Assembly (NCBI GenBank): GCA_015501605.1
Contig: JADNRZ010000002.1
Span: 310,001 to 374,000, forward strand
DNA: 64,000 bases
Direction of reading: 5' to 3'
Source: Panaeolus papilionaceus
Taxonomy: Eukaryota > Basidiomycota > Agaricomycetes > Agaricales
Shown one piece after another: positions 46,886 to 62,101 of the stretch. The position numbers and the translations under genes were made by a program. Each line of letters begins with the position of its first letter. The first letter of the stretch is position 1. The notes under the pieces are model-generated. The model did no database searches. It saw nothing but the letters and a program-made list of their open reading frames with translations, and was not told the origin of the DNA.

Positions 46886-47682
46886 CTACAGCTCAACCCC
46901 CGACCCAGCCAGCCACCTCGAATGCTCCTCCTGGTTCTGCTTAACAGCATTATAAACCGCCTCCCAATCTTGGCATTCATACACCCCACGCCAATCAATT
47001 GGATTCTTGTGTGAAGCGAACTGGAAAGACTCGAGCTCAAGATCCCCGCGGCACATAATGATTTGGCGCATGTAATTTAAACAATGTCTGCCCATCTCTG
47101 ACGGCCCTGAGATTGAGTGGTCGCGCACCATATCTTGGCGGATTATATCCAGACATTTTAGCTGGTGTATCATCCCGACGGTGTAAGGCTGCTTATGAGG
47201 ACCGAGGTGAACTACCCCATTGCCTGGTGCGCTTGCTGCCCATTCTGCTGCCCCGTCTTCAGATTCGAGCGCATAGTGCTTTGGGTTGTCGAATTGCATG
47301 GCCACCATTTTTCGTTCGATGGGCCAAACCTCGGGATAGTCATTTCCAACGTAGCCTACGTATCAAAAGTGAATGATGATAGGTGAGATTTTGAATTATG
47401 GCAGGGGAGAAAAAGCGGCCTATGATGACGATGATAACGAAATGCTCAACATGTGATGAAGGGCGTGGATGATGACAGCAAACCCGCCTCTGCATGCTTG
47501 CGAGAGTGGAGTAAATACTCACTATATTCTCTCTGGATAGACAGATGAGCTATTTGTTTCTTGATCCAAAGGGTTCCAACGAGTTTGACCAGCAAACTGA
47601 TAGCAGCGAAGATGCAGCTCAGGGTCAGTAAAGACCCTGAACTGGGGGAATTGCTGCGTTTCGAGAGGGTTAAAGCAGGCAT
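46886..47682 (-). CDS. UstY/DUF3328 family protein, degenerate HxxHC motifs
   Basis: Two minus-strand exons, 47682-47523 (160 nt) and 47355-46886, with a 167-nt intron; 209 aa. One membrane helix at residues ~17-40 (SLLTLSCIFAAISLLVKLVG) precedes the family signature EYSYVGNDYPEVWPIE at 52-67. In the two copper/catalysis-related HxxHC motifs of UstYa-type proteins, this protein has HQLKC (117-121) and MGRHC (141-145), so one His of each is replaced. The second motif is followed by the typical NYMRQIIMC and GDLELESF. UstY proteins cyclise ribosomal peptides oxidatively in dikaritin pathways and often work in pairs. Its neighbours are a seven-helix protein (divergent) and, 5.4 kb away, the repeat precursor at 53037. 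It may be an inactive partner subunit. Confidence 0.85.
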
Positions 47683-52600: not shown

Positions 52601-53036
52601 CCCTTTCAAATCCCCAATATCGGAGCGAATGCCATAAATGTCAACTCGAATCAGCTGCTCTAACACGCACCTCAGGGTGAAGGGGAAAACAATCCACGCT
52701 GGTAGAAACCGAACGAGTTCATTGTAGGTATTAGGGCAGTTTCATGACGAGATGGTATATTCGTATAGTTCAGTTGCCAAAACGAGAGATCGCGCGCATT
52801 ACATTCCAGACTTCAATTGACAGGGCAATTGACCCTAAGGGTGTTAGTTTGGCCCCCGATAGTAACGCGGGCGCTCCATCTGAAGATCTTGAAGTCTCGT
52901 ACATCACCGTTATTCAGCACACCAAACGCGGTCAATAGCTGATAACCTCCAGAGTATAAAATGCCCGTGCTCGCTTGCGTTATTGCTTCAGCAGCTTAGC
53001 TTCAATATCAGCTACTTCGATATCAATACCTCGACA
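49663..53036. other. Gene-free stretch upstream of the repeat precursor
   Basis: Short frames only. The right end holds the promoter of the precursor gene, with TATAAA at 52955-52960. No transposon or RNA gene is recognised. Confidence 0.55.
52955..52960 (+). promoter_or_regulatory. TATA box of the repeat precursor gene
   Basis: A canonical TATAAA within AGAGTATAAAATGCC lies 77 bases before the ATG at 53037, the spacing expected for a strongly regulated fungal gene with a short leader. Confidence 0.6.
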
Positions 53037-53937
53037 ATGGTCAAGCTCGCAGTCTTCACACTCCTCGCCGTCGTCGCTTCCATCTCAGCTGCACCCACCA
53101 TCGTGCTACGAGGTAAATATCTCACCCCTTCGATTATGCTTGCTGTTCTCTGATCGCTATACTAGATGACCTTTCTAGCAGTGATACCACCCGAGTCGAC
53201 ACCAAATTCTTGAGAGGTATTGTCAAGTTCTTCTGTCTAATGACGTTCGAGATTACTGATCGCATGCCAATCCAGATGACACGGGCTCTCGAGTCGACAC
53301 AACATTCTTGAAGCGGAGTCAGTTTTCCAGCCACTTTTATGATGAAGCTGTTCATCGCTTACTGGGTAAAACCCTACAGATGACGATAGCGGCAGAGTTG
53401 ACACTACGTTTTTGAGGCGAGGTTAGTTTTCGAGACCCTTGGTATGATGTCGCCACTCATCACTCACTGCACATTTCAGCCGATGATAGCAGCAGAGTCG
53501 ATACCACATTTTTGAAGAGAGGTGAGTATGGACCCATTAAACTTGTCTTGTACCTCAAAAGCCAGTGATTTGACGGTACCTCATTCTTTGTTCGATCTAG
53601 ACGGAGAGTCAGATCGTTCTGACACCTTATTCTTGAAAAGAGGCAAGTAGCCATCGCTTAATTATCCATAACGTCTGAACGGCGTCTTACCATCCCTGAA
53701 AACATCAGATGACGGCGTCCCTGACGCTACCTGGCTCAAAAGAGGTACGAATCCACAAAATGCTCCGAAGTGAATGTTATCTGATGTCGATATTCATTTC
53801 TGTCTATTTTCAGAGGTTCAATTGGAGTCATTGCATTCTGCAAGAGGTGAGCTGAATAATGTTCGATGTAAGCGCACATCGCGCTAAAAACATGATCAGG
53901 AGACGATTCGGAGCGAACCGACACCGCTTTCCTCTAA
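53037..53937 (+). CDS. Secreted repeat peptide precursor (Kex2-processed, dikaritin-like RiPP candidate), one unit per exon
   Basis: Nine exons: 53037-53112, 53166-53216, 53276-53317, 53380-53421, 53480-53521, 53601-53642, 53709-53744, 53814-53846, 53900-53937; 133 aa. Exon 1 is a signal peptide (MVKLAVFTLLAVVASISA) plus a short linker ending in R. Each later exon encodes one unit. Units 2-4 follow the consensus (D/N/A)-D-(D/T)-(S/G)-x-R-V-D-T-T-F-L-(K/R)-R; unit 1 has an insert and a single R, unit 5 has SDTLFLKR, unit 6 ATWLKR, unit 7 is divergent and ends AR, and unit 8 ends DTAFL at the stop. KR/RR are Kex2 sites, so peptides ending in -FL are expected. All introns (53-79 nt) fall one base after the last Arg codon (phase 1); intron 6 has a GC donor. 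UstY genes nearby support a RiPP precursor, but a plain secreted signal peptide precursor remains possible. Confidence 0.85.
53166..53937 (+). repeat. Eight exon-borne repeat units of the precursor
   Basis: Exons 2 to 9 measure 51, 42, 42, 42, 42, 36, 33 and 38 nt (the last includes the stop). Every internal exon is a multiple of three and bounded by phase-1 introns, so a unit can be gained, lost or skipped without shifting the frame. The introns differ in length and sequence more than the exons do. Confidence 0.85.
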
Positions 53938-54536: not shown

Positions 54537-55547
54537 TCAAACAGTCTGGTACTGTCGAATAAAAACACCTAGATGAATGGAAGTGGATGAGTTGAAGTTA
54601 TTAGAATAAGGAACGAGAAATGGTACACACCCCAAGTCTGATTTTGGTTGGTCCATACGTCGATGTCGCATCCAAAGGATTCTTCCGCACATGAAATCTG
54701 ATAGGCTAAGTAGTCGCCAGATTTGCAATAGAAAGGCTTCATCTCGACTTCTCCCCCGATCTTGGCTTCTACAACCCCCAAGTCGCGGGCACAAGACGGT
54801 TTTGTATCCCAAGAGAGTTTGTGCTCCTTCAACGGCCTATGCGCATCAAGTTGGCAGATACTGAGCCGCACAGAGTCCCTTGAAGTCGGTAGGGTATATT
54901 GATGAGGCAGAACGTCACCACGATTTGGCAGTCGTACAGCCAAAGTGCACTTCTCCATCCCGTAATCCAGAACATTGTACTGAACAATCGTATGGACCTG
55001 CCACCATCCTCATGAACAAGAGCCAGAAATAGATGGTAAAAATCACATACTTCACTTGTAACTTTGGTGCGCCGATCGGGAGGTGAAACCAAACCAAAGT
55101 TGGTAAGCCATCTGTGTTCGTCGAACGGGAAGACCTTCTTGGGCTCTGCTGGGCTGACCTGAGCTGCTATTCGTGGTTCGTTGATTATAGGGTCGTGCTT
55201 TGAGGCCTTAACGGCTTGTGAACTGTAGAGCTCGTCGAGACCAATATATGGATTCCTTAACTCCATTGTATCCGGGTCTCTGACCTGGTTCCCAGCATCT
55301 AGCAGAATTTTGGCCACGGAAAAGAAGGCGTAGATGTCGACAATAAAGAATAAGACGACGAATGCAGCTGCAAAGACTGAAATCTTGCTAGTGCGACCCT
55401 CATCATCCCGTCCTTCTAGCGATTTGCCAATATGCTCAGAAAGTAGACCACGAGTAGTAGATGACGCTACTCGCCTTTCATCACGATGAAGTCGTCGTCG
55501 TCGCTAAGAAGAGTACGAGACTCAAAATCACTGTTTGTCTTGCCCAT
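54537..55547 (-). pseudogene. But2-C-like single-pass membrane protein with an apparent frameshift near its start
   Basis: Minus-strand exons 55547-55051, 54997-54631 and 54568-54537. ATG at 55547 opens MGKTNSDFESRTLLSDDDDF but meets a stop at 55467-55469. The family-like sequence continues in another frame (DERRVASSTTRGLL, from about 55484), then a membrane helix (ISVFAAAFVVLFFIVDIYAF), NPYIGLDELY, IAAQVSPAEP, HRWLTNFGLVSP, VLDYGMEKC, DIDVWTNQNQTWG and the ending RQYQTV. I found no intron joining the two frames in phase, so a one-base-type frameshift (mutation or sequencing error) near 55470-55500 is the simplest reading. From memory, such proteins in mushrooms are annotated with a But2 C-terminal-like domain; function unknown. 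Everything downstream is intact, so it may be a recent lesion or a model problem rather than an old pseudogene. Confidence 0.6.
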
Positions 55548-56297: not shown

Positions 56298-57317
56298 TTA
56301 CTGCAGTTTTGAAGTGTCTAACGAGAAGACATGAAGAGGCCAATCTCCCCAGGGAGATGGCATTGGCAACGTTCCATGATGATGGAAGCCCAGGCCAACA
56401 TAGACAGGAACCTATAATCAGTTTTACATTTAGCAATTAAGCAATATCTCAACGAGGTTTCTCTTACGTTGGAATCAGTGGTCGTGCTTGTAGCCAGGAC
56501 CTCTCCTTTCGCTTTGGCCTGAGAATCATAAACTCTCTGATTTAAGAATATGTTATGACTCAAGTCCTACCTTTTCTTTCACCAAATTTACCAAGGCTCT
56601 CGCGATTCCTTTTCGTTGATGTTCAGGTACAACCGCGGCGTTGTGCAGCCACCAAGAATCTATTTTGCCCTGAAAAGACGTCAAGAAAATGAATATGCAC
56701 ATCGATCGTGGATACCCACTGTTGGTCCAAGGTGTTGGTTCACGAATGCAGGAAAACGTGCAAGATACTGGACTTTTTGTCAGTCTGATATACGCAAATG
56801 GGGAAGAATAATAATACCGTATTCTTGAAGTAGTCCATGCCAGCTGGGGAAATACGAGATAAAAATTCGTTGAGCCCTAGGGCCCTCTGTTGTTCCCTGA
56901 TACAGAAATGTGGGACAGTGAACATCGAATTTCGGGATCACTTACGTGCTGAACATTTCTTGGCCTGGAGGCATCCACGCTGTGTATCCAAGCAATTTCC
57001 CATCTTCATCGGTCGCCGTATAGATCTCCCCATCCAGGGCAATGGCCTTGACCATTGCCGTTAACTGGAGTTTAAAAAGAGATATGTCTCCGCCGCAAAG
57101 ACTGAGAGCAGCCTTGTCTGCAGGTTACCGATATGGATGTTGAACACTCCAAGATACAGGCCCGATACTTACCTTGATGCATCACGCTGTAAAATAAATC
57201 AACGGCATTGGAAATCAACTCCTCTGTTATTGTGTCCAATGTCAGTGTCAGGTCCCTGACCGAAAATGACATCTTACCCGAGGGGTTTTCAACGCGTTGA
57301 ACGGTGTAGTTGACCAT
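56298..57317 (-). CDS. GNAT-family N-acetyltransferase
   Basis: Eight small minus-strand exons: 57317-57278, 57223-57173, 57117-56946, 56896-56818, 56767-56720, 56669-56571, 56518-56468, 56411-56298; 217 aa. All joins are in phase. Exon 3 encodes an acceptor-side region (GEIYTATDEDGKLLGYTAWMPPGQ). Exon 6 carries the acetyl-CoA motif A: WWLHNAAVVPEHQRKGIARA, with QRKGIA at 148-153 as the pyrophosphate-binding loop. Exon 7-8 give LATSTTDSNVPVYVGLGF and SPWGDWPLHVF. Intron 1 (54 nt) is in frame without a stop, so an unspliced form would add 18 residues. The family acetylates small molecules or proteins; the substrate is unknown. Its place near the peptide precursor would allow a tailoring or self-protection role, but such genes are common in fungi. 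Confidence 0.85.
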
Positions 57318-59861: not shown

Positions 59862-61393
59862 TATCGGTTTGTCCCACCTTTTAGTCTTTCTCATGCAGCG
59901 TATATTGATAATTGTAACAGCAATGTAGTCCCCATGGGGCGTCGTTACCGTCGGAATACACTTTTTCTCAGCCTCTTCCAATGGACCTCTCTTAACCTTT
60001 CTTCTGGCTCCGGTATCTGTATCTATATTATTCTGTTTCGGGTAGATTTGGATTTGGGATTTAATCGCGCAGCTTCAGAAAAACCCCACAAAACACATCC
60101 ATCCAAGCAATCACGTTCGCTAACTTCAATGTATCGTTGTCCGCATCGAATTCATCGTAGACTCTATTAATGACGCACCGCATATTCATCCCCTCTCTTG
60201 TTAGAATTACGCCCTTGACGTTTCATGACAGCTATTTTTAGTAGGCAGGTATTCTGGAATATCCACTACACTTTGAATTCGTTAACCCCCTGAGGTTTTT
60301 GAGTCAAGTGTCCACATCACGAATACTTGTTTTTGCATCTCGGAACCAGATCATGGTTGGCCCTGCAAAACGCACAAGTTCACCGTGACTTACATCTACC
60401 AAAGCGGGAATTAAACGCAATTAAGCATAATGGTTATTCAGTTAATTTTCGCAGAGGTCTGCGAAGATAAGTTCAGCACTTCGGTGCAATGTGTTGCGAT
60501 GTGTCGCGTGCTCTTCTCAAGTCTTTTAAATTATAATATACGGGGTAGATCCGACGAATAGCATGACTTCGCTTAACGGTTGAGCTGGACATCATACCCA
60601 GTGTCCAATCTCCCGCCGCCGCCGTATTCAGGGTTGTGCCTATTCCCTCGTCGAAAGGATATATCTTAAATCTAAAAGTAGGAAAGGGTATGACATAGCT
60701 CCTCAGTATTGGTGACACCACTACAGCGACAACGTTTTTCTCTTGTCAAGATGTGATAGTGGCGATGGAGTACTCGGGTCTGGAGCAGTGGTCCCGTTTT
60801 TCCGGAGTACAAATTCTGCGTGTCTTCTCTGATAAACACCGTGTTCTAACCAACTTCTAACAACATAGTGCGGCCGCTCTCCAAGTGGTCACTTTGAAGG
60901 ACAAGAGATAAAGTGCTTCCATGCTAAATATAGAATCACCGCCTTGATGAGTACTTCGAGACTTGGCTGTCGAGCAGAGGGCAGCTTCGGAAGAAAGCGA
61001 ACAGTTGCTGTATATTATAATTGATCGAAGGGCATTATGTGCTGTCTATGTCCACTTCGGGATTTCGAACAAACATTGGGAGTGTTCGAGGTCCTCCTGC
61101 CTACCACAATTGCTCGTCATTCAATCGGAGTATGCTATTTTCGCATCGGAAAGATGGACATAATATCGTTAGAAGCCAGCGTAATGAACCCGAAAAAGCT
61201 CAGCCAAAGCACGAGCCCACCGCGGGAGCCTCGATTCTATTCTGGAAGGCCCAAAGAACAGATATGCACTTCTTCTACACGCCAATGTACTTGAATTATA
61301 TCAGCCATAGTATCTCCTGATTCGCTCCGTACCCCTTTCATTCGTTAGCTTATTTTCGTAGGCTTGCAAACACCCCATACCCACCCTCGCGCG
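59862..61393. other. Intergenic region before the second UstY gene
   Basis: Short frames without motifs. The last ~60 bases are the likely leader of the UstY gene. No RNA gene or mobile element is recognised. Confidence 0.55.
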
Positions 61394-62101
61394 ATGAGCA
61401 AAGGACAAACTCGACAGATCTTTGCGCTTGTTCTTCTTGGAGCGGCCTCTCTGTACTTGACCTGGTCATTGGTCACTCTGGCGAATGACGTTCAACAACT
61501 TATGAGGTTGCAGCAGCAACGTAGTTATGATCCGCGAGGAGAAGATGATTACTGTTTGTATTTCGTATCCTACTCTATTAAAGCAGTCGCTAACAAAGCC
61601 CATGTAGCGTATATTGGCCATGATCACCCCAAACGATTGCCTATTGAGGAGCGCCTGATCAAGCTCGTCGCTCAGGAGAGTGTTCATTACAGCATTAGCG
61701 ATCCTGAGGCCAACGACGAATGGCTATGGACAGCAAGCGTTGGAGATGGTCACGTCAGGCTAGGGAAGGATGAACGGATGTTCGCGGTCGTCGCATTCCA
61801 CGAGCTGCACTGTTTGCGGAGTATGCGCCATGCGATCGAGAACGGCTGGCAGAGCTTGCCGAAGGCGCGCCAAAGACACATCCTGCACTGCTACAATTAC
61901 ATCCGACAATGGACGCTCTGTGCGGCAGATGCGACATTAGAGCCAGGAGACTTCATGAAGAGAAACTTTACGAAACATCGAACGGGTGCGACTCATACCT
62001 GTGTCGATTGGGTGCCTGCATATGAAAAAATGAAGGACAAATGGATGGAATGGGATCAGTATCGTATCTCTCATGATATTGCTTACATTGATGCCGACTA
62101 G
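61394..62101 (+). CDS. UstY/DUF3328 family peptide oxidase candidate, intact HxxHC motifs
   Basis: Start ATG at 61394 (MSKGQTRQIFALVLLGAASLYL). I splice a 54-nt in-frame intron (61554-61607), giving exons of 160 and 494 nt and 217 aa. Splicing restores DDYSYIGHDHPKRLPIEE, which aligns position by position with EYSYVGNDYPEVWPIE of the other UstY gene, and exon 1 is 160 nt in both. One membrane helix at about 9-30. Both catalytic motifs are complete: HELHC (118-122) and HILHC (144-148), the latter followed by YNYIRQWTLCAADATLEPGDF. In ascomycete dikaritin pathways UstYa-type enzymes form side-chain rings in Kex2-released peptides. It is 7.5 kb from the repeat precursor; action on that precursor is inference. 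Confidence 0.88.
   Translation: MSKGQTRQIFALVLLGAASLYLTWSLVTLANDVQQLMRLQQQRSYDPRGEDDYCLYFVSYSIKAVANKAHVAYIGHDHPKRLPIEERLIKLVAQESVHYSISDPEANDEWLWTASVGDGHVRLGKDERMFAVVAFHELHCLRSMRHAIENGWQSLPKARQRHILHCYNYIRQWTLCAADATLEPGDFMKRNFTKHRTGATHTCVDWVPAYEKMKDKWMEWDQYRISHDIAYIDAD

Follow-up and report, generated by a model that had tools for sequence, protein, structure and literature searches.

Each of the eight repeat units of a peptide precursor gene of the mushroom Panaeolus papilionaceus sits on an exon of its own, and the Kex2-type protease sites between the units coincide with the exon junctions. We consider the gene to be, probably, a secreted multi-core precursor of the KEP kind and most likely the substrate of UstYa-family oxidases encoded on both sides of it, which would make it a dikaritin-like RiPP precursor. 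The interpretation given in the initial annotation survives in part; it missed the flanking UstYa genes, and it missed that the architecture goes beyond one family, since two unrelated precursors elsewhere in this genome, also linked to UstYa, are built in nearly this way with other intron phases.

The window, by which we mean the whole stretch of 64,000 nucleotides that was analysed, covers positions 310001-374000 of contig C12 in the 50.85 Mb assembly. The gene occupies window positions 53037-53937, exactly where a signal-peptide exon and eight unit exons had been annotated, and consists of nine exons and eight introns.

53037..53112, plus strand: exon 1, signal-peptide-like leader of 76 nt, ending in LR plus one base; present in the database model P0001
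53166..53216, plus strand: exon 2, unit DDLSSSDTTRVDTKFLR
53276..53317, plus strand: exon 3, unit DDTGSRVDTTFLKR; part of the match in the exon-chain scan described below
53380..53421, plus strand: exon 4, unit NDDSGRVDTTFLRR; part of the scan match
53480..53521, plus strand: exon 5, unit ADDSSRVDTTFLKR; part of the scan match
53601..53642, plus strand: exon 6, unit DGESDRSDTLFLKR, followed by a GC-AG intron; part of the scan match
53709..53744, plus strand: exon 7, unit DDGVPDATWLKR; part of the scan match
53814..53846, plus strand: exon 8, divergent unit EVQLESLHSAR, without the core aromatic residue, with a counterpart in the P. cyanescens protein P0002; part of the scan match
53900..53937, plus strand: exon 9, last unit GDDSERTDTAFL, followed by a stop at the point where most units have KR or RR

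The coding sequence of 402 nt specifies 133 amino acids and a stop, and because the unspliced frames hold many stops, splicing is needed to produce it. All eight introns (53-79 nt) are in phase 1 and cut one base past an Arg codon, as had been claimed, and the seven internal exons (51, 42, 42, 42, 42, 36 and 33 nt) are without exception divisible by three in length. The intron at 53643-53708 has a GC donor. The leader sequence MVKLAVFTLLAVVASISAAP is signal-peptide-like in appearance. The units measure 11-17 residues, not 10-17, and the description of most of them as ending in KR or RR holds for five of the eight, the remainder ending in LR and AR (each a single Arg) and, for the last unit, in FL followed by the stop. 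A core of the form D(T/A)x(F/W)L is common to seven of the eight units, where at least three similar repeats are expected of a KEP. Between the VDTTFL cores of exons 3-5 there are five nucleotide differences, all at third positions, a weak observation given that these exons were chosen for their identical core. A TATAAAA sequence lies at 52955-52961, 82 nt upstream of the start codon. The precursor is adjoined by an open reading frame with a But2 C-terminal domain (54572-55009, minus strand; E 3.2e-7), and a partial GNAT acetyltransferase match, barely above the Acetyltransf_1 cut-off (21.7 against 20.7 bits), is located at 56556-56876 on the minus strand.

The spliced product is letter for letter the P. 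papilionaceus database protein BJ165DRAFT_1427838. This protein and CVT24_000937 of P. cyanescens, which is 60% identical over 92% of the query, were the two of 102 candidates that reached E<=1 in a protein search. The P. cyanescens relative carries nine units against eight in our precursor, and two adjacent ones are identical; it also ends in FL without KR, and its lack of a signal peptide start is read as the mark of a truncated model. Within its own genome the whole protein gives seven matches, all at the precursor locus, to which both matches of the pattern DTxFLxRG followed by an intron GT belong as well.

A PF11807 (UstYa) search of the 50.85 Mb genome returned 13 matches, which we count as at least 11 genes at five loci. 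Three of these matches surround the precursor, at window positions 46955-47224 (minus strand) and 61772-62011 (plus strand) and, beyond the window, at C12:382611-382859. The two in-window genes lie 5.8 and 7.8 kb away, one on each side, thus providing the nearby UstYa/DUF3328 genes expected of a dikaritin precursor.

46889..47362, minus strand: UstYa-like enzyme open reading frame, PF11807 E 2.5e-15, with HQLKC and RHC
61349..62098, plus strand: UstYa-like enzyme open reading frame, PF11807 E 4.4e-13, with HELHC and LHC

The third gene has HQLKC and RHC too. The typical UstYa motif is HxxHC, and the occurrence of HxxKC instead in one of the two flanking genes counts against the modification of the peptides by these enzymes. 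The minus-strand frame at 46889-47362 and another at L019 8545-9063, both with HQLKC, are alike by eye.

The other four UstYa loci were searched for repeats, each within a stretch of 23-30 kb, gene models being drawn by eye and then checked by script. Two further precursors emerged, so that three of the five UstYa loci (on contigs C12, C70 and C50) have one, and each gene keeps a single intron phase, namely 1, 0 and 2, respectively.

C70:426095-427165 (L032 4095-5165): C70 precursor, 10 exons, WSxY cores, 1.3 kb from a UstYa gene
C50:48058-49396 (L030 58-1396), minus strand: C50 precursor, 9 exons, 6.7 kb from a UstYa gene

In the C70 gene, units such as RESTADEAVPPEAWSGYK occupy separate exons. 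Since all nine of its introns are in phase 0, the K-R or R-R pair is itself split across exons. The first unit is spread over two exons of 12 and 42 nt, the final junction falls between K and I, and the last exon is provisional. No homologs of the C70 protein were found at E<=0.01 among 1509 candidates. Two of the three precursors have a GC-AG intron among their units (window 53643-53708 and L032 4552-4604).

The C50 gene likewise places units such as (K)RSVDDVYLDARGNVLSKPV... on separate exons, and all eight of its introns are in phase 2, the cut at KR sites falling inside the first codon of the pair. Its first and last modules take up two exons each, both with an internal phase-2 intron at ..DPRL Q-F(T/I)GG.. 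(the hyphen marking the junction). The database protein P0003 matches the C50 protein over all 291 residues with two differences and is encoded on a contig of 1063 nt; this is shorter than the 1339 nt from start to stop in P. papilionaceus, and the contig therefore cannot hold those introns. P0004, whose contig measures 971 nt, is a relative in which the KR-type units number four against five. We infer that both contigs are transcripts; in principle an intronless copy of the gene could also account for them. The database search with the C50 protein yielded no named Panaeolus protein among the 7995 candidates scored, models of odd length being such as would be missed by this search and by that for C70.

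The C2 and C27 UstYa loci gave no repeat precursor within the 30 and 23 kb fetched. At the former, four UstYa genes are packed into 6.4 kb (C2:705021-711392) with no recognisable repeat precursor in the 30 kb, and at the latter 41-nt tandem repeats lie near a UstYa gene (L026 7990-8358).

Contig C7, which has no UstYa match in the PF11807 genome search, provides a single contrast to the unit-per-exon genes. Its array (L054 3601-5322), to which a W-(R)(R) triple pattern led us (30 matches against 24 in the control), consists of 29 RRHGSGERN... units within a single 574-residue open frame and is KEP-like in its repeats. A second, more diverged array lies downstream (L054 5771-6391).

How closely do the protease sites follow the junctions? 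The C12, C70 and C50 proteins contain 5, 6 and 5 KR or RR sites; none of the 16 is more than 1 nt away from an exon junction. Conversely, introns fall at such sites in 5/8, 6/9 and 5/8 cases, against random positions a binomial P of 7e-4, 7e-5 and 2e-5. The nine of 25 introns located elsewhere comprise three after a single Arg in C12, the A-R, T-S and K-I junctions of C70 and, in C50, one in the codon before RS and two in Q before F. The C50 protein also has a KK pair, which lies away from the junctions, and a few units in the three precursors span two exons.

The same property can be sought without any similarity. A scan for chains of symmetric exons of 30-120 nt, separated by introns of 45-85 nt and assembling KR or RR at every junction, returned from 429,646 strand-bases three chains of at least three exons, which are the C12, C70 and C50 genes, one per phase, and no chain from the reversed-sequence control. 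The scan was written after the three genes had been seen and was run on the window, on the other stretches from the five UstYa loci and on the C7 region; as these are mainly regions chosen for UstYa, it gives no genome-wide rate, and because it demands one phase per chain, uniformity of phase is not tested by it. Chains of more than two exons were also absent from a background of 30 loci (186,092 strand-bases), which were picked by pattern matches, several of them overlapping and three lying over the C7 array, and from the initial 45 kb of the window, whose 90,000 strand-bases already form part of the 429,646. An earlier version found the C12 gene only, because its rule that exons end in Arg left no room for K-R and phase-2 junctions.

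The first simple pattern tried gave five matches, none of them in the window. A genome-wide pattern of phase-1 paired KR/RR-G-GT ends matched 11 times and its control 12 times (7+4 against 5+7); one of the 11 is at the C12 locus, and the pattern is uninformative beyond that locus, while a stricter AAR pattern with no match (two in the control) misses the C12 gene too and thus has no sensitivity. A conserved KEP peptide of C. cinerea found no match in this genome, which is uninformative for so short a query.

What could the gene be making? The claim of a Kex2-type repeat precursor is borne out by the repeats with KR or RR between them, the exact gene model and the database protein. Exon 1 would lead the precursor into the secretory pathway, where Kex2 would cut past KR or RR and perhaps also past single Arg, and a Kex1-like carboxypeptidase would trim the basic residues, releasing peptides of about 10-12 residues that mostly end in DTxFL or ATWL. 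Such processing is suggested by the KR and RR sites themselves, by the cleavage after single Arg that has been suggested for KEPs of Agaricomycetes on expression in P. pastoris (Vogt 2022, PMC9769878) and by the end of the last unit, which in both species is FL without KR, as if FL were the mature end. The presence of a Kex2-type protease in the genome is indicated by its P domain, P_proprotein (PF01483), which exceeds the cut-off at two loci. That a dibasic site ends only five of the eight units, with single Arg after two and the stop after the last, counts against this explanation. UstYa enzymes may then modify the peptides, as the position of their genes suggests, the likeliest target being the aromatic residue of the core, which is F or W in seven of the eight units.

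The alternative that best withstands the evidence is a plain linear KEP yielding signal or defence peptides, with UstYa genes that merely happen to be near; we regard it as rather improbable but still to be reckoned with. The KEP peptides of Agaricomycetes that mass spectrometry has revealed to date are linear and little modified (PMC9769878). UstYa neighbours are absent from most basidiomycete KEPs and occur with 103 of 1680 (Umemura 2020, PMC7329392). The cores of the C12 precursor, moreover, lack Tyr in all eight units, which speaks for a linear product and against the best-known UstYa chemistry: Tyr is the cross-linked residue in the named UstYa products and is present in 65.6% of the repeat sequences of UstYa-linked KEPs (PMC7329392). 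As Tyr is thus not general, its absence leads us to the term dikaritin-like rather than dikaritin. A linear product would also fit the lack of any further tailoring enzyme known from such clusters among the 40 open reading frames scanned, out of 235 of at least 75 aa. Against it stand the UstYa genes on both sides in a genome where they were counted at only five loci (11 genes, a lower bound), and the linkage to UstYa of all three unit-per-exon precursors, found by a search centred on UstYa loci, whereas the C7 array is one open frame.

A spurious model or a decayed gene is very improbable: the gene is known from a predicted model, one donor is GC and a simple YTRAY branch motif is present in only 14 of the 25 introns of the three genes, but the database holds an identical model and a P. 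cyanescens relative, and for the sister gene type on C50 there are matching proteins whose contigs fall short of the genomic span.

The dikaritin-like precursor that we favour can be set beside several known systems. With described KEPs (Le Marquer 2019, PMC6339444; Umemura 2020, PMC7329392; Vogt 2022, PMC9769878) it shares a signal-peptide-like start, short repeated units with KR or RR between them and a mature end that is likely trimmed, and it differs in having one unit per exon and the Kex2 site at the junction. With dikaritins (RiPPs of the ustiloxin, phomopsin and asperipin type) it shares a KEP-type precursor near UstYa/DUF3328 genes, and differs in the lack of core Tyr, the basidiomycete host and the unit-per-exon gene. 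Schistosome micro-exon genes also encode secreted proteins in many short exons; they are defined by short exons together with long introns, which reach 5 kbp (PMC10526429), in contrast to 48-79 nt in the three mushroom genes and 53-79 nt in C12, and unlike them the mushroom genes devote most exons to repeated Kex2-bounded peptides. The words "intron" and "exon" do not occur in the main text of PMC7329392, and PMC9769878 has "exon" nowhere and "intron" once, for cDNA cloning, so that neither text describes the exon layout of KEPs. We found no description of a unit-per-exon KEP or RiPP precursor in the main-text literature consulted (PMC7329392, PMC9632046, PMC8893723, PMC9233826, PMC6339444, PMC9769878).

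Growth by exon duplication, as initially proposed, is the better of the routes considered. Because each core lies on one symmetric exon, a gain or loss of exon plus intron by duplication or deletion would change the set by one core in frame, with a complete protease site at the new junction. Such duplication probably underlies the single phase per gene, the match of units to exons and the repeated two-exon module of C50, and is in line with the eight against nine units in the two species. Traces of it may persist in the introns: the C12 3/4 and C50 3/5 pairs, selected for their top two scores among 92 within-gene pairs, each exceed 5000 shuffles (0/5000 reach C12 3/4), but the remaining 90 stay at or below the best score among 208 between-gene pairs.

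That most intron pairs show no detectable relation speaks for separate intron gains at Lys and Arg codons resembling preferred splice-donor contexts (AAR, AGR before GT). The three bases before the donor at KR or RR junctions indeed include AAG, AGG, AAA, AGA, GAG and the like, and Basidiomycetes are termed intron-dense (PMC9233826). We nevertheless hold this origin to be unlikely, since a KR site can accommodate any phase across the three genes and yet the phase is constant within each (8/8, 9/9 and 8/8); the similarity kept in two intron pairs, the C50 module repeated with its intron in place and the identical adjacent units in P. cyanescens point the same way. Tandem duplication that itself created the introns would likewise give one phase, and stays under consideration beside exon-plus-intron duplication. 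As far as frame is concerned, skipping of C12 unit exons, which the initial annotation proposed as a way of tuning the peptide mix, would be possible.

We suggest, tentatively and with more doubt than confidence, that UstYa-linked mushroom precursors form an exon-cassette gene class, with one core per symmetric exon and the Kex2 site made at the splice junction, a design that may have been reached separately in all three phases, that would allow cores to be added, lost or skipped singly, and that could defeat gene prediction to the point where most of its members are missing from databases. An odd single gene has in any case become a testable rule, in that the three UstYa-linked repeat precursors found here mostly give every peptide its own exon and place the protease site where exons join, and scanning for exon chains that assemble KR or RR at their junctions offers a way of searching for others that is free of similarity. 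The design suggests a simple route for the in-frame growth of peptide sets. As the searches returned no database protein for the C70 gene and no named Panaeolus protein for the C50 gene, annotation may be missing such genes, and the low number of UstYa-linked precursors reported from Basidiomycota may in part be due to this.
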